From the IMG/VR virus record IMGVR_UViG_3300049734_000021, positions 1 to 20,357 of that record: DNA of 20,357 nt. One strand, 5' to 3'. Of the stretch, positions 2,756-12,933 are shown one piece after another. The notes under the pieces are model-generated. The model saw only the letters and a program-made list of their open reading frames with translations. It was not told the DNA's origin and did no database searches. Each line of letters opens with the position of its first letter. Position 1 is the first letter of the stretch. Made by a program: the position numbers and the translations under genes. Source of the stretch: a virus.

Positions 2756-3208
2756 CTACTCCGCTTGGCGCGATGCTGTGATAGAGAGTGCTGGCGTTGC
2801 TTTCTTACTCACTTTGTTGATAGCTGCGTCGATCAGATCAACGTTGATACCAACACGCACAAGCTCTGTACGCAGTTCGTCAACATCTGTTATAAGACGC
2901 GGACGGTTAGCAGAGAAGTTCAATGACCAGTCTTCACCATGTACGCTGGTGCCAGTCTTGACCATCAGTTCAGCAGCTTTACTGCGTACTTCAACTATCT
3001 CTTTCTCGTACTCGTCACTGACACGCGCCTTCACTGTCTCGTAGCGCTTCTCAGCGTATGAGCGCAGCATGTGTGCTGTAGCAAACTCTGCACCTAGCTG
3101 GTCTAAGCTGTCTTGAGTTGTCTTCGGTGCAGGAAAATCGTTTATACACTGTGCAACTCTTGCTTCAAGCGGCAGTTCAACTACCGCTGGCTTTGTCTTT
3201 GCTGGCAT
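2756..3208 (-). CDS. Hypothetical protein with coiled coil, possibly Gam/Gp157-like, 150 aa
   Basis: The start is ATG 3206-3208, not the in-frame upstream codon at 3244, because AAGGAGA lies 8 bases before it and the predicted promoter (3247-3274) would start transcription near 3240. A helical central part (YAEKRYETVKARVSDEYEKE) is followed by DWSLNFSANRPRLITD and a helical C-terminus with DVDELRTELVRVG. The pattern of coiled coil plus short strand plus basic C-terminus resembles Gam and siphovirus Gp157 nuclease-inhibitor proteins that neighbour phage recombination genes, but no diagnostic motif is visible, so this is a weak suggestion. First gene after its own promoter, leading the recombination operon. 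Confidence 0.75.
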   Translation of the reverse strand: MPAKTKPAVVELPLEARVAQCINDFPAPKTTQDSLDQLGAEFATAHMLRSYAEKRYETVKARVSDEYEKEIVEVRSKAAELMVKTGTSVHGEDWSLNFSANRPRLITDVDELRTELVRVGINVDLIDAAINKVSKKATPALSITASRQAE

Positions 3209-3881
3209 CGCTTGTGTCTCCTTGTGTTGTGTTGGTAGTATCATTAATTATAGCAGATGTAGGATCAGATGCAAGCCGCGACTTCTTCAAATCATCTAAT
3301 CTACGTCTGCGTATGGTTGCGTATGCATCACCCCACGGCCACTCGATGTGCTTGTAGATGACGCGCATGCGTATTTTGCGTATCACGCTGGCGTCTATTT
3401 GTAGATCATAGCCTTCTCTCATCTTCGCACTGATGAACGCTGCATCGCAGCCAATTTCTAACATCTGCATGATGCGGCGTATTTGGTAGTGCTTCATGCC
3501 GACACGTTCACGCTTGATCATGTCGGCTACGTTGTCAGCTTGTGTGCCGATGATCATATGTGTGGGATTGCAGCACCAACAGTTGTCGCACTTGTGACGC
3601 ACGACTTCACTTGAGCGCAGCTTGTAGCCTGTGTAGAGTTCATAGACGATGCGATAGACGTAGTAATCCTTTTGGCCTATCACAACACGTGGACGGTATT
3701 CGCCACGTGTACCCTTACCGTGTGCGCCTTTCCATTCCCAACATACATCAACGTCGCCATTGTGCATGTTGATACGCTGGAATACGTCGTGCAGTTCTGC
3801 GTGCTGCTTTTGCTTTCGCGGCAGCTTTTCTTTTACCGCTTCGCGTTGCTCTACTACGTGCTGCGGGATTGGCTTGTGGTT
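3177..3881 (-). CDS. HNH endonuclease (homing-type)
   Basis: Carries an HNH_3-type core: CWEWKGA, then RPRVVIG and YRIVYELYTG, then RHKCDNCWCCNPTHMIIGT and DNVADMIKRE, giving the histidine-asparagine-histidine triad at about H96, N105 and H108 with three or four nearby cysteines that could bind zinc. Such genes are usually mobile homing endonucleases in phages. Start chosen as GTG at 3879-3881 because GGAG lies 6 bases upstream; the ATG at 3894-3896 adds five residues but has no SD. The C-terminal region after about residue 130 is basic and may bind DNA. Its 5' end overlaps a small membrane ORF by up to 134 bases and its 3' end overlaps the next gene and contains that gene's promoter, which is what a late insertion into an operon would look like. 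Confidence 0.9.
   Translation of the reverse strand, partial: NHKPIPQHVVEQREAVKEKLPRKQKQHAELHDVFQRINMHNGDVDVCWEWKGAHGKGTRGEYRPRVVIGQKDYYVYRIVYELYTGYKLRSSEVVRHKCDNCWCCNPTHMIIGTQADNVADMIKRERVGMKHYQIRRIMQMLEIGCDAAFISAKMREGYDLQIDASVIRKIRMRVIYKHIEWPWGDAYATIRRRRLDDLKKSRLASDPTSAIINDTTNTTQGDTSDASKDKASGS
3247..3274 (-). promoter_or_regulatory. Sigma70-type promoter TTGCAT-N16-TATAAT
   Basis: On the minus strand TTGCAT (3269-3274) and a perfect TATAAT (3247-3252) are 16 bp apart; the -35 is extended to CTTGCATCTGAT. Transcription would begin near 3240, ahead of the SD and ATG of the 150-aa gene at 3208. It lies inside the 3' end of the HNH gene, so genes downstream keep a promoter of their own. Confidence 0.7.
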
Positions 3882-4008
3882 CACGATAGTCTCCATTCAA
3901 GCGCTTGTACAAGCGTAATGTCGCATAGGTTGGAATGAAGTACAACAGCACGAATAGAGTGACTGTTGTACTCCAATAGACGGAGTAGTAGTATACATTG
4001 TATAACAT
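3748..4008 (-). CDS. Small membrane protein candidate, 86 aa, overlapping the HNH gene
   Basis: Not recognised. The first 35 residues hold one strong membrane segment (VTLFVLLYFIPTYATL) after a tyrosine-rich N-terminus; the second half is a very basic tail rich in Lys, Arg and Ala (GKRKAAAKAKAARRTARR). Its ATG overlaps the TGA of the upstream 99-aa gene (TGATG), which supports coupled translation. The SD is weak (GAGA). The last 45 codons lie in another frame of the HNH gene's 5' end, so either the tail is an out-of-frame product of an HNH insertion or the two really overlap. The palindrome at 3992-4004 lies in codons 2-6. Confidence 0.5.
   Translation of the reverse strand: MLYNVYYYSVYWSTTVTLFVLLYFIPTYATLRLYKRLNGDYREPQANPAARSRATRSGKRKAAAKAKAARRTARRIPAYQHAQWRR
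3992..4004. repeat. 13-bp palindrome TATACATTGTATA
   Basis: Perfect match to TATACANTGTATA. It lies right after the stop of the 99-aa gene and inside the first codons of the 86-aa ORF. Confidence 0.9.
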
Positions 4009-4307
4009 CAGATAGTCTCGTCGCGCGGCATTGGCGTGTTCTCTTCCACAACTAGCTCGTAAGTCTTGCGGAAGATGTCAGGCTTGCACGGATAAAACTC
4101 GCCTTCAACACCGCGAATGATGTAGTCACCGAGCGTGGCAGTCATTGTGCCTTCAAGCGTGTGAATGAGTGCACGTATGAGGTAGATGCCATCGAGTGCA
4201 TAGATGAACTCGACGTTGCCTGTAATCCAATCAGGAGGGGGTTCTTCAGGCTTGCTTGTGAAGAGCCATGCGTCTACTTCAACTGGTATCTTGCGATAAC
4301 GTGGCAT
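4008..4307 (-). CDS. Conserved phage protein of unknown function, 99 aa
   Basis: Function unknown. The stretch GDYIIRGVEGEFYPCKPDIF is one I recognise from many small phage proteins that share the ending 'GDYIIRGV.GEFYPCKPDIF..TYE'; these are conserved but uncharacterised. The N-terminus MPRYRKIPVEVDAW is also typical of that family. The SD is strong (AGGAGGT, 7 bases before the ATG at 4305-4307). The gene ends in TGATG with the 86-aa ORF. Confidence 0.85.
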   Translation of the reverse strand: MPRYRKIPVEVDAWLFTSKPEEPPPDWITGNVEFIYALDGIYLIRALIHTLEGTMTATLGDYIIRGVEGEFYPCKPDIFRKTYELVVEENTPMPRDETI

Positions 4308-4317
4308 TGTAAACCTC

Positions 4318-4737
4318 CTAGTGTTTCTTGTCAGACGATGAAGGTTGTTCTGCTATCAAGATGCTGCCATCAACGTACTCGATAACGTCGAATGCAGGAC
4401 GCTCACCGACACGTGGCTTGACGAAATCGTGTTTTGCGAACGGCTCTGGCGGTCGCAATCCCTCAATGAGATTGCTGTTTTCAGGCAGCACGCAGATAGG
4501 CAGTAGTTTAGCCTTGTGCTTGATGTCGAGTATGTGAGCGCACAGCACATACACATATTGACCATCGCGTAGCGTTGTGAACTCGACAACTACTAAGTCA
4601 CCTAACTCACATGCCATGAGCAGATGACGTAGAGATGTATTGACGCCAGCCGGTAGCGGCGTTTCACCGTTGCCTACACATTCAACCATGTAGTTCTCCC
4701 CTGTTTCGTCAATCAGAGGGTTTATTGGCTTGCTCAT
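4318..4737 (-). CDS. Hypothetical protein, 139 aa
   Basis: Not recognised. The central part alternates strand and helix (LLMACELGDLVVVEFTTL, YVYVLCAHIL), ending in a polar lysine-containing tail. No catalytic motif, signal or membrane segment seen. AGGAA lies about 8 bases before the ATG at 4735-4737. The start overlaps the end of the 85-aa membrane gene by 29 bases, and the palindrome at 4759-4771 lies 22 bases upstream of the ATG. Confidence 0.75.
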   Translation of the reverse strand: MSKPINPLIDETGENYMVECVGNGETPLPAGVNTSLRHLLMACELGDLVVVEFTTLRDGQYVYVLCAHILDIKHKAKLLPICVLPENSNLIEGLRPPEPFAKHDFVKPRVGERPAFDVIEYVDGSILIAEQPSSSDKKH

Positions 4738-4966
4738 CTTGTCGTTCCTTTATTCTTTTATACAGTGTATAACGCAGCTTACGCCTACCAGCTACACGCT
4801 CGCAGTAGTCAGCAAATGGTTCTGCATAGTAACCTACTATGACACCTATTACTAAACCGCAGGTAAACGGGTAGTGATCAATAAGTCGTGATCCCCACCA
4901 ATCCAACTCGATCCACATGCGGAGTTGGTGTAGTCTGAACGCTATCTCGTCGTATGCTTCATACAT
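4709..4966 (-). CDS. Small membrane protein, 85 aa
   Basis: Not recognised. One membrane segment at about residues 33-50 (YPFTCGLVIGVIVGYYAEPF) separates an N-terminal part with several tryptophans and acidic residues from a basic C-terminus (RRKLRYTLYKRIKERQ). No SD precedes the ATG at 4964-4966, so the start is uncertain. The gene lies 59 bases behind the PEP-CTERM gene and may be cotranscribed; a link to surface biology is only an inference. Codons for RYTLYK contain a perfect copy of the 13-bp palindrome. Confidence 0.65.
   Translation of the reverse strand: MYEAYDEIAFRLHQLRMWIELDWWGSRLIDHYPFTCGLVIGVIVGYYAEPFADYCERVAGRRKLRYTLYKRIKERQDEQANKPSD
4759..4771. repeat. 13-bp palindrome TATACAGTGTATA
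   Basis: Perfect copy, inside the 3' end of the 85-aa membrane gene and 22 bases upstream of the start of the 139-aa gene. Confidence 0.9.
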
Positions 4967-5025: not shown

Positions 5026-5748
5026 CTACGCCGTTACAGGCGCAGGTGTAGTCTGCATAGCAGCTTCAGCCTTCTTACGCCTACGCATAAGCCAGCCTAG
5101 ACCTGCCATACCACTACCGAACAACCACACTGCACCCGGTATAGGTACAGGTGGCGGGTTGTCAAACGGTGTTGGCGTGCCACCGCTCAAGTCAACAAAC
5201 CCTGTTCGTCCATTAGTACCTGATAAGATGTCAAGCACCATGAACGCTTGTGTGTCACCGGGAGGATTGCTCGACAGTTGAGCAAAGCTTGCCAGTGTTA
5301 GACCAGCACCACTGATACTGAAGGTGGTGTCGCCGGGACCATTGCCGCCGTTCCACGTACCTTCAATACCATATTCAAACAAGCCGAAGCCATCAGCAGT
5401 CAGTGCGCCAGCGTTTTGCTGGTTAACAGGTATCACACCGGGAATGCTGAAGAGCGGCGACAAGCCTGAGTAGGTGATGGTAGGATCACCGACAAGGTTA
5501 AAGCCAAAGACAACACCTTGACCTCCATTGGCGAAGTGATTGCCATTGAGGAAGTTGATGGCGATGTCAATAGTGCCATTGCCTTGATCGGTAGCTGTGA
5601 TAGTCGCAAAGCCACTTGGCTGTGGACCACACAAGTCCGTACAGTGATCAGAACGGAACACGCCAGTTCCGACTGTCACTGCACTCGCTGCAGTTGTTGC
5701 AAGCGCGGCGAGCGACACCGCGATTGCCATGAGAGCTAGCTTTCTCAT
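5026..5748 (-). CDS. Secreted PEP-CTERM protein
   Basis: A Sec signal peptide (MRK, then LALMAIAVSLAALATTA, cleavage likely after ASA at residue 23) is followed by a low-complexity Gly/Asn/Thr-rich beta-type domain (24-195) with two cysteines (C36, C40), and then a PEP-CTERM sorting signal: proline-rich NPPP, VPIPGAVWLFGSG at 201-213, a hydrophobic helix and RRRKK at 222-226. In bacteria such proteins are cut and anchored or released by exosortase, usually linked to extracellular polysaccharide. Unlike most, 14 residues (ending TTPAPVTA) follow the basic cluster. The SD is strong (AAGGAGA). No exosortase gene lies in the window, so the host's would be needed. Codon use does not obviously differ from neighbours. 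It may have been acquired from the host and could change the cell surface during infection. Confidence 0.85.
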   Translation of the reverse strand: MRKLALMAIAVSLAALATTAASAVTVGTGVFRSDHCTDLCGPQPSGFATITATDQGNGTIDIAINFLNGNHFANGGQGVVFGFNLVGDPTITYSGLSPLFSIPGVIPVNQQNAGALTADGFGLFEYGIEGTWNGGNGPGDTTFSISGAGLTLASFAQLSSNPPGDTQAFMVLDILSGTNGRTGFVDLSGGTPTPFDNPPPVPIPGAVWLFGSGMAGLGWLMRRRKKAEAAMQTTPAPVTA

Positions 5749-5901: not shown

Positions 5902-7137
5902 CTACTGATTACTCTCACTATGTTCGATTTGATAGACCTGTTCCATCAATGAAGCGCACTTGTCCACAAGAACATTCTGCATCTTGCGTGTGTGATCTTC
6001 AAGCTCTTCGCTATAATGTAACCATTCTTCGTAGATGGTTCCGAGTATAGCAACTGGACCACGCTCGAAAGCTAACTTAGCGATGTATATCTTGCCATCA
6101 CGTGTCAAGCCGAGTACATCGTCTGGCAAGCTGACACATAGATGCAGTACGTTATGTGTCACCATGATGTTGTGATGGTTCAACACCTTGATAGCATGAT
6201 CGAGTTGCAAGCGCTCAAACTTGGTAGGCTTGTAGCGGTCGTATTGTTCGTCGAGCGGTCGCGTCTTGATGTACGTATCACGTGCCCACAACGGCATCGT
6301 CAGATGGTGTTCGACTAGGAACGCACACGCCTTGATGAAGTCAGCACTAGGTTCACGATAGCTAGGTTGTAGCTGGCTTTCATAGTACGATGAATGAGCG
6401 ATCTTCGGCAGATGCTCTACGAGTGCATCGTAGGTCATACCACGTATCCACAAGTCATAGATGTGCGACGAGATGTACCACGGATCAGCTAATGTACGAT
6501 CTTCCGTGAGTTGCACCTTGTGTACATAGTCGTATGTGAAGTACGTAGGCTTCTCCGTCTTTGTACCTGTGTACATAGAGCGATAATAGATGACGTTATC
6601 ATCGTTGTGACGCTTCTCAACGCAACGGATTATCTTGTCGCTAGCAACAGCGTCAGCTTTGATGAAGTACTTGTCATGCTCCGCTGCAATTGCAACAAGC
6701 TCATTCAACTCAACAATGACCATGACACTGCCCATGTTCTCGAACTCTTGCACAGGTGCATCGGTAGTCATTACACCGCCGCCTTCATCGAGTGCGTTGG
6801 TATATAGCTCACGGTATGCTTGCCACAGCTTCCAGTTAGCGCCTAAGTGAGTAGTGAATGGAAGCTCAAACTCCCTGTCAGTCGTCATGTCGTGTGCGTA
6901 GATGAAGTCGAACTCCTTGTCACGGAAGCTGCCCTTGTCTGTATAGAACACATATTTAGTTTCGGGCGTGATTACACTGATGTCTGCGCCATGTCTTAGC
7001 AACACAGACAAAGCGTATTTGAAGCCTGTGCCAAAGAAGCCAATAGCATTGTCGCTAGACTTAGCAGACAAGCCAAGCATAGTGAATGCACGGCGGTCGA
7101 GTGTGCCGTTGTTGTAGAAGATAACACGTGTAGTCAT
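5902..7137 (-). CDS. GHKL-type (Hsp90-like) ATPase with C-terminal EExxH motif
   Basis: Two ATP-binding motifs of the GHKL fold are visible: IGFFGTGFKYAL (32-43), very like the Hsp90 'GxFGVGFYS' lid, and YRELYTNALDEGG (108-120), like the N-box helix. They occur in the reverse of the usual order, which suggests a circularly permuted or rearranged fold. Near the C-terminus EEWLH (370-374) is followed by LEDHTRKMQ, reminiscent of zincin-like metal sites but without HExxH. T4 rIIA is a phage GHKL protein, though similarity beyond the fold is not claimed. The SD is GGAGA, 7 bases before the ATG. The palindrome at 7177-7189 lies 40 bases upstream, in the intergenic gap behind the AT-hook gene. Role unknown; ATP binding likely, hydrolysis and partner unknown. 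Confidence 0.75.
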   Translation of the reverse strand: MTTRVIFYNNGTLDRRAFTMLGLSAKSSDNAIGFFGTGFKYALSVLLRHGADISVITPETKYVFYTDKGSFRDKEFDFIYAHDMTTDREFELPFTTHLGANWKLWQAYRELYTNALDEGGGVMTTDAPVQEFENMGSVMVIVELNELVAIAAEHDKYFIKADAVASDKIIRCVEKRHNDDNVIYYRSMYTGTKTEKPTYFTYDYVHKVQLTEDRTLADPWYISSHIYDLWIRGMTYDALVEHLPKIAHSSYYESQLQPSYREPSADFIKACAFLVEHHLTMPLWARDTYIKTRPLDEQYDRYKPTKFERLQLDHAIKVLNHHNIMVTHNVLHLCVSLPDDVLGLTRDGKIYIAKLAFERGPVAILGTIYEEWLHYSEELEDHTRKMQNVLVDKCASLMEQVYQIEHSESNQ

Positions 7138-7176: not shown

Positions 7177-7189
7177 TATACAGTGTATA
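7177..7189. repeat. 13-bp palindrome TATACAGTGTATA
   Basis: Perfect copy in the gap between the stop of the AT-hook gene (7192) and the start of the GHKL ATPase (7137). Confidence 0.9.
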
Positions 7190-7338: not shown

Positions 7339-7756
7339 CTTGCTCTCCTTCAGTGCTACCGCCATTCTGCGGTAAGCGTTGTAGCAGGTTTTCAAGTTTA
7401 GCTACATCAGTGCTACTAACCTGCGGAGTTAGCACTGCTGTAGGACGATATGCAGCACGTTTAGCTTCCTCAATGGTGCTGCTTATGAGCGTTTGAATGT
7501 TGTTCAGGCGTGCTGTTAGCTCCGTACAGTAGCGCATGTAGTGATCACGCTCGACGGTGGCGGTCGCCAGCCTGCCTTCGAGTTGATTAGTGCGCTCGCG
7601 GAACAGAGCAAGTTCTGTCATCATGCGGTCGTTGTTGCGTAGTAGCTCATCACGCTGAACGACTATAGCATGTATAGCCTCAACGCCACGTGCTGCTGTT
7701 TCGTGCAGCGCATCAGCTACAGGTGTACTGTTGGCTTTACCGTTGGGTACGTTCAT
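7316..7756 (-). CDS. Hypothetical coiled-coil protein, 146 aa
   Basis: Not recognised. Residues about 25-100 form a long helix with heptad periodicity (VVQRDELLRNNDRMM, TNQLEGRLATATVERD), the rest is flexible. GGGGAG lies 8 bases before the ATG at 7754-7756. The gene overlaps the end of the 89-aa gene by 20 bases and the AT-hook gene at its other end, so translation of the three is probably coupled. No function can be given. Confidence 0.75.
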   Translation of the reverse strand: MNVPNGKANSTPVADALHETAARGVEAIHAIVVQRDELLRNNDRMMTELALFRERTNQLEGRLATATVERDHYMRYCTELTARLNNIQTLISSTIEEAKRAAYRPTAVLTPQVSSTDVAKLENLLQRLPQNGGSTEGEQDATRKTS

Positions 7757-8006
7757 ATGTAATGCTCCCCTTTGTCGGTGGTCTGATCATCAACTCACGC
7801 ACTTCTGTCTCACTACGAAAGTGTTGCATGCACTTACCATCAGCGAATAGCTGCAAGTATGTGCCGCGCCACTCACTACTAGGGCCATTGCGTGAATTGG
7901 TAGCAGTCCACGCCTCCCATGATTGCGAGTATACACTGTATACCAGCATATGAAGGCGTGTGCCGGGATGCAGCCACACCTTGTCTTCATTCAGGCGATG
8001 TGTCAT
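7737..8006 (-). CDS. Hypothetical protein, 89 aa
   Basis: Not recognised. Start at ATG 8004-8006, two codons after an in-frame GTG at 8012, because GGTGAG is well spaced only for the ATG. The protein has a few ordered stretches (MLVYSVYSQSWEAWTA, YLQLFADGK) and no motif. The codons for YSVYS contain a perfect copy of the 13-bp palindrome (7930-7942). Both ends overlap neighbours by about 20 bases. Confidence 0.75.
   Translation of the reverse strand: MTHRLNEDKVWLHPGTRLHMLVYSVYSQSWEAWTATNSRNGPSSEWRGTYLQLFADGKCMQHFRSETEVRELMIRPPTKGSITYERTQR
7930..7942. repeat. 13-bp palindrome TATACACTGTATA (intragenic)
   Basis: Perfect copy fully inside the 89-aa gene, encoding part of LVYSVYS. Confidence 0.9.
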
Positions 8007-8220
8007 CGTCACTCACCACTATTGTAACACGTGTCACTAACTCGTCTGCATCACCAAACATGTCAGCAGGTATGTTGGTGCGTACATAGACTTTCTCACC
8101 ACATGAGCCGTGAGTGAGTGCCATCTTCTCCCAATACTCAGGAGCGCTACTAGAGAACAACTCGCCGGGGAGTAAATCACGTGCGCGGACACGTTCTGCT
8201 TTGATGACTACGTTTCTCAT
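7987..8220 (-). CDS. Conserved small phage protein, 77 aa
   Basis: Function unknown. Start at ATG 8218-8220, which overlaps the TGA of the 314-aa gene (ATGA); GAAGGA lies further upstream. The longer in-frame ORF back to 8289 has no SD. The sequence reads RARDLLPGELFSS, then GEKVYVRT and LVTRVTIVV, a layout seen in several small phage proteins that are described only as hypothetical; the resemblance is from memory. The end overlaps the next gene by 20 bases. Confidence 0.75.
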   Translation of the reverse strand: MRNVVIKAERVRARDLLPGELFSSSAPEYWEKMALTHGSCGEKVYVRTNIPADMFGDADELVTRVTIVVSDDDTSPE

Positions 8221-9178: not shown

Positions 9179-9191
9179 TATACAGTGTATA
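9179..9191. repeat. 13-bp palindrome TATACAGTGTATA
   Basis: Perfect copy in the 32-bp gap between the stop of the DUF932-like gene (9194) and the start of the 314-aa gene (9161). Confidence 0.9.
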
Positions 9192-10039: not shown

Positions 10040-10246
10040 TTACTTAACGTCAACGATCAAGCCCGACTTCATCGTGACTTGACCAAACCACTCGCGGCCT
10101 TTGTGTGTGATATGTGGACGGTTAGCTACTGTAAGCACACCATCATGTCTGTACTCAGGACCGAATACAGATGTTTCAATGTAGCGCAACGGCTTACCTA
10201 CATTAGCCTTGCACTCTTTCTTCGTCGCGTAGTTAGCTATCAACAT
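10040..10246 (-). CDS. Hypothetical protein, 68 aa
   Basis: Not recognised. Start at ATG 10244-10246, because GGGAG lies 6-7 bases upstream; an in-frame ATG at 10252 is too close to the SD and the longer frame to 10291 would translate the palindrome. The C-terminus has strand-like GVLTVANRPHITHKGREW and VTMKSGLIVDV. It is the first gene after the promoter at 10351-10378 and so leads the long left-arm transcript. Confidence 0.7.
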   Translation of the reverse strand: MLIANYATKKECKANVGKPLRYIETSVFGPEYRHDGVLTVANRPHITHKGREWFGQVTMKSGLIVDVK

Positions 10247-10269: not shown

Positions 10270-10282
10270 TATACACTGTATA
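10270..10282. repeat. 13-bp palindrome TATACACTGTATA
   Basis: Perfect copy in the leader of the 68-aa gene, about 60 bases downstream of the predicted start of transcription and just upstream of the SD. Confidence 0.9.
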
Positions 10283-10383: not shown

Positions 10384-10630
10384 TAAATATACATATTAAC
10401 ACTTGTGGCAAGCACTAAATCTAGTGGCCCAAGTGGGCTGGCTTGAGTTCTTCGTTTGTTCACTCATGCGAGCGAGCGGGCGAAGCCCGTCTATGTGCTG
10501 CCGCAGTCTACATGTATACATTGTATAGCACGCACGCGGTGATGACTGAAGCGGCACAGTGAGTGCGTGTGTGCTGTGCGCTTGCGTGAATTTGCGGGTG
10601 TATGAGTGGCGGGCGCAAGCGCTTGGCTAA
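10384..10630. other. Gene-free stretch between terminator and left-operon promoter
   Basis: No ORF here has an SD or protein-like composition. It holds a GGGC-GAA-GCCC hairpin (about 10477-10492), another short one (GCCC-AAGT-GGGC, near 10435) and the palindrome at 10515-10527. No other signal is visible. Confidence 0.5.
10515..10527. repeat. 13-bp palindrome TATACATTGTATA
   Basis: Perfect copy in the gene-free stretch between the 34-aa gene's terminator and the left-operon promoter. Confidence 0.9.
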
Positions 10631-10665
10631 TATAAAACCCGCGCTTACTAATGCAAGCGCGGGTT
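10631..10665 (-). terminator. Rho-independent terminator after the 34-aa gene
   Basis: On the minus strand an 11-bp perfect stem (AACCCGCGCTT with AAGCGCGGGTT; loop of 8) is followed by a tail reading TTATATT after the stem's final TT. It ends the transcript of the 34-aa gene. Its upstream edge shares one base with the palindrome at 10665-10677. Confidence 0.85.
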
Positions 10666-10677
10666 ATACACTGTATA
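10665..10677. repeat. 13-bp palindrome TATACACTGTATA abutting a terminator
   Basis: Perfect copy between the stop of the 34-aa gene (10681) and its terminator hairpin. Confidence 0.9.
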
Positions 10678-10810: not shown

Positions 10811-10842
10811 ATAAACGCCGCTAGCATTTGCGCTAGCGGCGT
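10811..10842 (-). terminator. Rho-independent terminator after the 301-aa gene
   Basis: On the minus strand an 11-bp stem (ACGCCGCTAGC with GCTAGCGGCGT; loop of 6) is followed by TTATTCTTG. It lies 18 bases beyond the stop of the 301-aa gene, with the palindrome at 10844-10856 between them. Confidence 0.85.
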
Positions 10843-10843
10843 C

Positions 10844-10856
10844 TATACACTGTATA
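10844..10856. repeat. 13-bp palindrome TATACACTGTATA beside a terminator
   Basis: Perfect copy between the stop of the 301-aa gene (10860) and its terminator, one base from the hairpin. The bases linking stop and palindrome (TAACGC) are the same as after the 34-aa gene. Confidence 0.9.
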
Positions 10857-10859
10857 GCG

Positions 10860-11765
10860 TTAGGCTGTCTTACGCTTCGCACCACCGCGCAACGCGCGCT
10901 TGATGCTAGCTTCGGCCTTTGCATCTTCGGCCTTTGCCTTGACGCCTTCAGCCGCGAAAGCCTTACGCGCTGCAGCCTTGTCGCTATCGGACATCATTGC
11001 ATCAAGTCGCGCCCACAGCAGATGCAGCGCTTCTGTTGCCTTCGGTCCTGCAGCGATGCCCTTGCCATCAGGCTTGATGATAGCTGCAACGCTAGTGTCA
11101 ATGCGCGTCACAGCATTCGGCAATTCAGAAGGCGAGAAGCGTTCACCGCTACCGCCTTTCTTGTCGTTAGCCGCGCCGCTCTTCGCAGTAGACAAGCTTT
11201 CGCGGACATCGGCTGTGCTGGTCTTAGCTTCGATCTTAGCGCCGCTCACGTTACGCAATTGCGCGGCGTTAAAGCGCACAAGCTCAAACTCATCACCGCG
11301 CTTGACGTAGCAAGCGAACGTGTTTGAGTTTTGCACTTTGGCGATCGTCACAGCGAAGCCTTGCTTACGCAAAGCGCTAACGCCGCGATACGTATCAACC
11401 GCTCGCTGCAGCATAGTGTTGACCATGTTCAGCGATTTAGTTGATTGCTCAAACGCTGCCTTCTGTTGCTCTGTCTTTTCTTTGATACCGGCAAGACCAG
11501 CATGCGCGGTCATAAAGACATTGCCTTCAGGTGACGCCTTCCAGTAGTCGAGCAAGATAGACCTAACGCTGTCTTGCTTCTCAACAGCTAAGCTGCCGTT
11601 GAAATCAAGCTTTGCGCTAAGCGCTTCAAGCTCGCTGCCGTAAGAGTGCACAAGGTAGATCGGTCCTGTTTCAATCTCGCCTTTCATATTGGCAAGTCGC
11701 AGGACATCACCGCCGAAAGCGCTAGCGTTACGCTGTGCCGGTGCAATTACTGTTGTCTTGTTCAT
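10860..11765 (-). CDS. Hypothetical protein, 301 aa, basic Ala/Lys-rich C-terminus
   Basis: Not recognised. The N-terminal 190 residues look globular (GPIYLVHSYGSELEAL, then NVFMTAHAGLAG, then FAVTIAKVQNSNTFACYV), then a flexible Ser/Gly/Lys linker leads to a helical, lysine- and alanine-rich C-terminus ending RALRGGAKRKTA, which might bind nucleic acid. AAAGGAA lies 8 bases before the ATG at 11763-11765. It has its own promoter (11824-11851) and terminator (10811-10842), so it is a separate transcription unit next to the divergent control region. That position is where phages often put regulators or host-takeover proteins; no direct evidence for either. Confidence 0.8.
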   Translation of the reverse strand: MNKTTVIAPAQRNASAFGGDVLRLANMKGEIETGPIYLVHSYGSELEALSAKLDFNGSLAVEKQDSVRSILLDYWKASPEGNVFMTAHAGLAGIKEKTEQQKAAFEQSTKSLNMVNTMLQRAVDTYRGVSALRKQGFAVTIAKVQNSNTFACYVKRGDEFELVRFNAAQLRNVSGAKIEAKTSTADVRESLSTAKSGAANDKKGGSGERFSPSELPNAVTRIDTSVAAIIKPDGKGIAAGPKATEALHLLWARLDAMMSDSDKAAARKAFAAEGVKAKAEDAKAEASIKRALRGGAKRKTA

Positions 11766-11823
11766 TGTCTTAGTTCCTTTGCTTGTGTTGTCGTTAGCTA
11801 CGTTATTGCAGCTAACTAAGATA

Positions 11824-11851
11824 ATTATAGCATACGCAATATCACATGCAA
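11824..11851 (-). promoter_or_regulatory. Sigma70-type promoter TTGCAT-N16-TATAAT of the 301-aa gene
   Basis: TTGCAT (11846-11851) and a perfect TATAAT (11824-11829), 16 bp apart on the minus strand, with the extended -35 CTTGCATGTGAT. Transcription should start near 11817, about 50 bases before the ATG. Confidence 0.75.
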
Positions 11852-11903
11852 GCGCTTAAATCTGCACTAGCTAAACAGGCACAAGTGCAAGCGAGCTAGC
11901 GGC

Positions 11904-11916
11904 TATACACTGTATA
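11904..11916. repeat. 13-bp palindrome TATACACTGTATA
   Basis: Perfect copy upstream of the promoter of the 301-aa gene, within the CTAG-rich stretch. Confidence 0.9.
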
Positions 11917-12078
11917 ACGCGCACTAGCTACGCACTAGCTGCCGTCGCCTTGCAGCTAGCTAGCACAAGCGCAACAGCGTAGCGCATAGTGGAGTGCTGC
12001 CGCCTTGCCAATTGACTAAACTTGCCGCGCTTCACATTCACGCTAGATGCTAGCTGCCTAGCTGCAAGCGCTGCCAAC

Positions 12079-12091
12079 TATACAGTGTATA
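12079..12091. repeat. 13-bp palindrome TATACAGTGTATA
   Basis: Perfect copy in the middle of the divergent control region. Confidence 0.9.
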
Positions 12092-12271
12092 ACGCGCGGC
12101 GCTGTTGCTAGTGCATGCGAGCTAGTGAGCTAGTCCCCGCCCGAAAGCAAAACGCCTAGTGTTAAGTTGGCCGCGCGGAGAGAGAAGAGCACCGTCACAA
12201 GCCGCGTAGACTTTGCAATTTGCGTGTGTGAGCTATAGTACTTGGGTTGCCTATATGTACTTAATAAGTAT

Positions 12272-12348
12272 AAAAAAATGGTGTAGTGTAATAGCCTCAT
12301 GTAGAGACTACTACAGCTACACCAAGTTATACGCAATACAACACAAGC
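12272..12348 (-). ncRNA. Candidate small RNA, ~77 nt, long hairpin with U7 tail
   Basis: On the minus strand TGGTGTAG, bulged C, TGTAGTAG, TCTC, loop of 5, GAGG, CTATTACA, CTACACCA fold into a 20-bp stem, followed directly by seven Ts. Two pairs are G-U on the minus strand and would be A-C mismatches in RNA made from the plus strand, so the structure is selected for minus-strand RNA. A promoter of the phage's own family lies just upstream (12355-12383). No ORF fits. It could also be simply a strong terminator of unknown upstream transcription, though no gene lies on that side. The 5' arm includes 10 bases complementary to the predicted late leader (12516-12525). Confidence 0.55.
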
Positions 12349-12354
12349 ATATAT

Positions 12355-12383
12355 ATACTACCACACCTACAAATCACATGCAA
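12355..12383 (-). promoter_or_regulatory. Predicted promoter of the small RNA, TTGCAT-N17-TAGTAT
   Basis: TTGCAT (12378-12383) in the extended form ACTTGCATGTGAT and a weaker -10 TAGTAT (12355-12360), 17 bp apart on the minus strand. Transcription would start near 12348. Confidence 0.5.
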
Positions 12384-12440
12384 GTCATCAGCTTTAGTAG
12401 TTGTAGTTCTCTTGTAGTTAGTGCGAACAGGTGCAAGGCT

Positions 12441-12457
12441 CCGGCCCTTCGGGCCGG
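12441..12457. other. GC-rich hairpin beside a palindrome upstream of the late promoter
   Basis: CCGGCCC-TTC-GGGCCGG is a perfect 7-bp stem, one base away from the palindrome at 12459. No U-run follows on either strand, so it is not a standard terminator. Confidence 0.5.
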
Positions 12458-12458
12458 T

Positions 12459-12471
12459 TATACAGTGTATA
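12459..12471. repeat. 13-bp palindrome TATACAGTGTATA at the late promoter
   Basis: Perfect copy ending five bases before the -35 of the late promoter (12477). This is a normal place for an activator or for a repressor that contacts the polymerase. Confidence 0.9.
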
Positions 12472-12476
12472 ATGCG

Positions 12477-12505
12477 TTGACAGGGCGAGCTAATCGTAGT
12501 ATAGC
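12477..12505 (+). promoter_or_regulatory. Late (structural) promoter TTGACA-N17-TATAGC
   Basis: A consensus -35 TTGACA (12477-12482), a 17-bp spacer and TATAGC (12500-12505). Transcription would start near 12512, giving a leader of about 32 bases to the first structural-arm gene, with GGAGGT at 12532. Confidence 0.75.
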
Positions 12506-12543
12506 CGATCTATAGGACTACTACACCTAGTGGAGGTAGAGCT

Positions 12544-12933
12544 ATGCCTAATTGGGCAGGTCTGTGGGACAGGCAACACGGTCAACCATACGCACTGCTG
12601 AATGAACCTGATGCTGCCATGCGTGGTATTGCTCGCATCATGGCACCACAAGCGCAGAAGGCACGTGGTGAAGTCGGTGTGAAGTTGACGGGCAGTGCTA
12701 TTGGTGCTGCAGCTTCAGCTTCAATCGGTCAAGTCAAAGCACAGCAAGCAGATGGCTTTAACATCGGTGGTGCTGTTCCTGTTGTCAACACGATTGTTGT
12801 CAGCCGTGCAACAGAGACAGCCGACGAGACTGCGCTCGATGCACAACTCCAACCAACGTTTGCACCTGCTACCTATCCGCCCGACAAGAGCGGCAACGGT
12901 GGCGGCGGCATGTTAGGTAAGCTTAGCGCCTAA
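12544..12933 (+). CDS. Hypothetical protein, 129 aa, first gene of the structural operon
   Basis: Not recognised. The N-terminus has MPNWAGLWDR and a helical stretch, the middle is Ala/Gly-rich (GSAIGAAASASIGQVKAQQ) and the C-terminus is proline- and glycine-rich (PPDKSGNGGGG). It could be a small virion or head-maturation protein, judged only by its place. GGAGGT lies 6 bases before the ATG. The next gene begins 13 bases after its stop. Confidence 0.7.
   Translation: MPNWAGLWDRQHGQPYALLNEPDAAMRGIARIMAPQAQKARGEVGVKLTGSAIGAAASASIGQVKAQQADGFNIGGAVPVVNTIVVSRATETADETALDAQLQPTFAPATYPPDKSGNGGGGMLGKLSA

Follow-up and report, generated by a model that had tools for sequence, protein, structure and literature searches.

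An operator-like palindrome upstream of a putative late promoter recurs throughout most genomes compared in a clade of uncultured phages

A palindrome stands 5 nt upstream of a predicted late promoter

What does a 13-base palindrome do when it stands directly upstream of the -35 box of a phage promoter, and does it govern the structural genes that follow? We addressed this question in a virus record of 20,357 bases from a soil phage (the window, meaning the whole stretch of DNA analysed), in which a control region of about 780 bases separates the leftward from the rightward gene arm (Table 1). Genes for the terminase large subunit and a P22-like portal were recognised in the window, and the structural arm is presumed to be late from its gene content and layout. 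The relatives found through TerL make up one clade, of uncultured viral contigs. A TerL search returned 166 stretches, of which 80 were retained, and about 80 related IMG/VR contigs were compared; one of these, G026, is the window's own phage and identical to it. The nearest isolates are less than 30% identical in TerL, and likewise in capsid.

The original prediction had the palindrome ending five bases before the TTGACA of a consensus-like promoter, with its centre near -47. The placement is exact in the sequence, the linker ATGCG (12472-12476) supplying the 5 nt, and the centre at 12465 computes to -47 when +1 is taken as about 12512; the first ATG is at 12544. The description as consensus-like overstates the -10, which follows the -35 after a 17-nt spacer, matches at 4/6 positions and has no T at position 6, and because of this weak -10 a consensus promoter scan did not list late promoter 1. 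A TATAAT also spans the palindrome edge (12467-12472). The conserved GC hairpin upstream of late promoter 1, which the original prediction left out, has no U-tract and is thus not an ordinary terminator. On the - strand all of its listed loops are GNA or GNNA closed by C-G, a loop form that is unusually stable in DNA hairpins and occurs in phage N4 promoters.

Table 1. Features of the window discussed in the text
Feature	Position	Strand	Details
Virus record (window)	20,357 bases		leftward - strand genes up to 11765, rightward structural genes from 12544
Palindrome TATACAGTGTATA, probable operator of late promoter 1	12459..12471	.	exact copy; relatives compared
-35 TTGACA, late promoter 1	12477..12482	+	sequence; at least 5/6 match in 31/32 distinct relatives, exact in 23
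-10 TATAGC (4/6), late promoter 1	12500..12505	+	17-nt spacer; lines up with the TATGGC-like -10 boxes in relatives
GC hairpin CCGGCCC-TTC-GGGCCGG	12441..12457	.	abuts palindrome; 7-bp perfect stem, same place in 30/32 distinct relatives
First structural-arm gene, 129 aa	12544..12933	+	no Pfam/PHROG match; homologues in 21/26 other contigs
Palindrome copy, divergent control region	12079..12091	.	
Palindrome copy, control region	11904..11916	.	139 nt upstream of first leftward gene
First leftward gene, 301 aa	10860..11765	-	lysine-rich, fast-evolving; weak binder candidate; no Pfam/PHROG match; 27-46% identity in alignment
Palindrome copy	10844..10856	.	4 nt past stop of 10860-11765 gene; directly before terminator-like hairpin 10817-10842 (- strand)
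Palindrome copy	10665..10677	.	after short - strand ORF; adjoins terminator 10636-10665
Palindrome copy TATACATTGTATA	10515..10527	.	
Palindrome copy	10270..10282	.	upstream of small - strand ORF (ATG at 10246)
Palindrome copy	9179..9191	.	between stop codon and following start, - strand
Palindrome copy	7930..7942	.	within conserved 91-aa ORF 7737-8012
Palindrome copy	7177..7189	.	40 nt upstream of ORF 5902-7137
Palindrome copy	4759..4771	.	22 nt upstream of ORF 4318-4737; within unsupported 85-aa ORF
Palindrome copy	3992..4004	.	3 nt past stop of ORF 4008-4307

The promoter is conserved among relatives and the palindrome is not

The first structural gene was located in 77 sequences, 76 of them with at least 110 nt upstream, which gave 32 distinct versions of late promoter 1. 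All but one carried a -35 at 5/6 or better; 30 had a 17-nt spacer and 30 had TG before the -10, the scoring having favoured both. Among the 31 scored promoters the window's is the sole one without the TG of an extended -10, a feature that the scoring favoured. These alignments support a real, conserved promoter preceding the structural genes. The palindrome lay within 90 nt of it in 18/32 distinct versions, at spacings of 1, 1, 1, 2, 2, 3, 5, 9, 12, 13, 13, 14, 14, 14, 14, 17, 33 and 33 nt. The 14 versions with no palindrome here include three from contigs that do carry the site network (G002, G004 and G006) as well as contigs with no network (G007, G009 and G014), and in G007 the promoter is present with zero copies of TATACNNNGTATA within the 40,000 bases read. 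Since some relatives thus have the same promoter and lack every site, late transcription does not depend on the palindrome.

A similar arrangement was found at late promoter 2, before the tail-fibre gene, where 52 upstream sequences reduced to 22 distinct ones, all with TTGACA. A complete TATACNNNGTATA site was present in 7/22 versions (that of G017 with an off-type centre), and in 7/7 the gap to TTGACA was exactly 5 nt, the same 5-nt, -47 geometry as at the window's promoter 1. An eighth site, in L021, is cut by the end of the stretch and has a gap of 6. The linkers between palindrome and TTGACA vary in sequence, and the constant gap may in part reflect descent of the slot from a shared ancestor. 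The window's own phage, as represented by G026, has promoter 2 without a site. The proposed tie between the palindrome network and control of the structural genes thus holds, at the level of sequence, as an association with two late promoters (18/32 and 7/22) but not as a requirement, given the range of 1-33 nt at promoter 1, the 14/32 versions without a site and the G007 promoter.

The palindrome belongs to a genome-wide site set that appears to switch as a whole

Within the window we counted 12 exact copies of TATACANTGTATA, 13 bases each, and 14 sites at up to one mismatch, where 100 shuffles gave 0.07 on average, so that a chance origin was rejected. An unbiased gapped-palindrome scan ranked TATAC-N3-GTATA first in most of 26 fetched contigs. 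Most contigs with an early arm carry 8-23 copies of TATACNNNGTATA, whereas in Markov shuffles the most frequent palindrome reaches 2-4; G007, G009 and G014 lack such a network. Sites avoid coding sequence, with 63/183 own-type sites inside conserved ORFs where 156 were expected (G026, being identical to the window, was excluded, and other near-duplicate genomes were kept). Many lie 1-12 nt past stop codons, and certain slots recur: downstream of the capsid stop, between the first leftward gene's stop and its terminator, where converging operons meet and, in the early arm, between stop and Shine-Dalgarno. A promoter adjoins the site in 17/379 site-orientations. Because sites are as common between genes and after stop codons as they are at promoters, a promoter-only role is too narrow. 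Judged from these comparisons, the palindrome is a real conserved feature and part of a distributed operator-like network.

Two promoter-like roles for the copies themselves were also considered. That every copy serves as a -10 box was rejected, as several early copies abut a Shine-Dalgarno with no room (by eye), and a search for a T7-like phage RNA polymerase, whose promoters the sites might be, gave no PF00940 match in 15 records, where the positive control also gave none. No sigma-70-like promoter for the leftward early operon was found in the control region (11765-12600, - strand).

The contigs use A/T, T/A or R/Y at palindrome positions 6 and 8, and flank preferences differ as well. Related phages carry different versions (TATACANTGTATA, TATACTNAGTATA, TATACRNYGTATA); any one genome is consistent in its version, and the version switches along the tree. 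The intergenic sites were TATACTNAGTATA in 18/18 cases in five contigs and TATACRNYGTATA in 102/102 in the others, an agreement to be read with the fact that types had been assigned from these very sites. A TerL plus portal tree with 25 rows requires 7 changes of type, against a shuffled mean of 12.5, and at least 2 for the T/A type. At the promoter 2 slot, the A/T sites of G001 and G005 and the T/A site of their tree neighbour G021 all stand at 5 nt. The apparent switching of entire sets suggests a protein that acts in trans and whose specificity changes, and because the sets switch between close relatives this protein is likely phage-encoded, a host factor being possible. A scan of all viral contigs for the T/A-site pattern returned 59 stretches, most of them on contigs beyond those compared here.

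Candidates for the binding protein

Among the 69 early proteins scanned, and among the main genes, no recurring DNA-binding family was found beyond an HNH endonuclease. The HNH protein (window 3180-3896) was rejected as the switching factor, its C-terminal part being conserved across site types. A comparison for proteins that track site type gave no clear winner, and most T/A-type contigs lack the early region. The product of the first leftward gene has a predicted structure with mean pLDDT 76.9 and no significant PDB match (Foldseek best E 0.095, TM 0.12; PDB profile best E 0.13), and the gene also occurs in G007 and G014, both without the network, which makes it a weak candidate.

No repressor, integrase or other lysogeny gene was recognised (PF00589 in 0/15 records, from contigs that may be incomplete), and the early proteins scanned included no partition gene. 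A pattern-limited search with TerL or capsid found no relatives among the genome contigs of bacteria and archaea. Neither an integrase nor a prophage form, the marks of temperate-phage immunity, was seen.

Regulator binding and its alternatives

We favour the explanation, to which we give a probability of about 0.5, that the palindromes are operators for a DNA-binding regulator, probably encoded by the phage, which would repress promoters and might also block elongation. A sequence-specific regulator, probably a symmetric dimer, would bind the genome-wide operator set. At the late promoter, where it would occupy -53 to -41, it would exclude RNA polymerase or hold polymerase there, and bound in short intergenic gaps it would hinder elongation, much as repressors do at mycobacteriophage stoperators. 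Both the binding of a protein and its effect as repression or roadblock are inferred, and repression with a possible elongation block seems the likeliest role. That site-less relatives keep the promoter is as expected of a dispensable regulator. Counting against this explanation are the lack of a strict position at promoter 1, the roughly one third of own-type sites in ORFs, and the searches that recognised no lysogeny gene (PF00589 0/15), no recurring DNA-binding family beyond an HNH endonuclease and, when pattern-limited, no genome-contig relatives. A more far-reaching version, in which an uncultured clade with a P22-like portal uses palindromic stoperator-like silencing through a binder of a new family, with heteroimmune-like switching of whole sets and no recognised integrase or repressor, is possible but tentative.

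The gap of exactly 5 nt to TTGACA in 7/7 complete promoter 2 sites and in the window would suit a late-gene activator, a phage regulator at -47 that recruits polymerase to the two late promoters while the other copies serve other promoters, and the promoter 1 spacings are weakly phased at 10.5 bp (R=0.62; p about 0.001 with 18 values, 0.014 with 13 values). However, the 10.5 peak is broad, the -35 and extended -10 of the relatives look strong enough alone, a complete site is absent from 14/32 promoter 1 and 15/22 promoter 2 versions (one of the latter cut) while TTGAC is kept in nearly all, and many sites have no adjoining promoter; we therefore consider an activator unlikely. If the phages instead carried sites for a host protein, with types mirroring different hosts, this would accord with a scan that recognised no phage-encoded regulator, with the several switches on the tree and with the absence of the network from G007, G009 and G014. 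The phage-wide placement after stops and before terminators suggests silencing rather than a borrowed host operon signal, and a host regulator's site is improbable in our judgement.

Many of the early sites fall in the gap from a stop codon to a Shine-Dalgarno, and we also weighed an RNA element, with a UAUAC-NNN-GUAUA hairpin after stops or before Shine-Dalgarno acting in translational control or RNA processing. The asymmetric early-arm sites favour one direction relative to transcription (29 vs 5 overall; 14 vs 3 outside ORFs, in the contigs examined and with A/T-type sites impossible to orient), and the first flanking pair can pair, G-U counted, in 72/128 cases against a shuffled mean of 54 (p=0.0002). 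Both results are as compatible with a DNA site that has an orientation as with RNA. Against RNA, the hairpins of the window copies reach only -0.7 to -5.2 kcal/mol, the asymmetric form preferred in early arms sets A opposite C, pairing beyond the first flanking pair gives no signal except a marginal one at the second, and sites also occur upstream of promoters at fixed spacing. The weak hairpins and the promoter-proximal sites favour DNA over RNA, and we regard an RNA element as very unlikely. Multiple palindromes with an intergenic preference, mostly with no promoter beside them, would also be compatible with DNA maintenance sites (partition, replication or condensation) that sit in gaps because gaps tolerate them; this is just as hard to credit, given the fixed spacing at late promoter 2, the search that found no integrase in 15 records and the lack of a partition gene among the proteins scanned.

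Relation to known systems

The stoperators of Cluster A mycobacteriophages (L5, Bxb1) are many 13-bp copies in promoters and short intergenic spaces that differ in sequence between related phages (PMC6550527, PMC9283540). They are asymmetric sites whose repressor binds as a monomer, and their orientation follows transcription. The set described here resembles the L5 stoperators in having many copies of one short site (12 in the 20-kb window, 8-23 in most early-arm relatives), placed in promoters (two late promoters) and in short intergenic, post-stop spaces. It differs in that the sites are palindromic rather than asymmetric, and in that no lysogeny genes were found; no cognate repressor of the L5 Rep kind was recognised among the 69 early proteins scanned. 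The conserved inverted repeats (CIRs) of phiC31, an integrating actinophage with a known repressor, are repressor operators repeated in intergenic regions, and share with our sites, by description, a palindromic operator repeated in the intergenic DNA of one phage. P2 Ogr and Mu C are phage activators of late promoters with a symmetric site upstream of the -35, as here; in contrast to an Ogr/Mu C-type promoter, which requires its site, the relatives here keep the promoter without one, and most sites are not at promoters.

To our knowledge, most documented cases of repressor sites spread over a genome and acting between genes come from actinobacteriophages. Literature searches found no publication that describes a palindromic system for this clade, which is not proof of absence. 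In an unrelated clade of soil phages a palindromic set would, if true, show that the strategy arose more than once, and repeated coordinated switches would give a natural series of operator/regulator pairs for the evolution of immunity groups.

Other genes of the clade

Several further genes were observed in the course of these comparisons. A 1415-aa protein (L106:5597-9844), conserved in the clade, has no relative in Pfam, PHROG or PDB, and was rejected as a virion RNA polymerase, as the PDB search gave no relative. L108:9207-11735 encodes a Family A DNA polymerase with a uracil-DNA-glycosylase-like domain at its N-terminus. A small protein with a sigma-70 region 4-like helix-turn-helix (L126:4592-4921, E 0.00029) was seen only in the T/A-type contig G019. 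One of the 69 early proteins matched an Acb2/Tad1 hairpin domain (E 8.5e-10) and is a possible anti-defence protein. The window's 5026-5748 encodes a putative secreted protein with a PEP-CTERM-like tail at its end (Pfam below cut-off, E 0.068), and G002, G006 and G016 carry small secreted ORFs that resemble its product.
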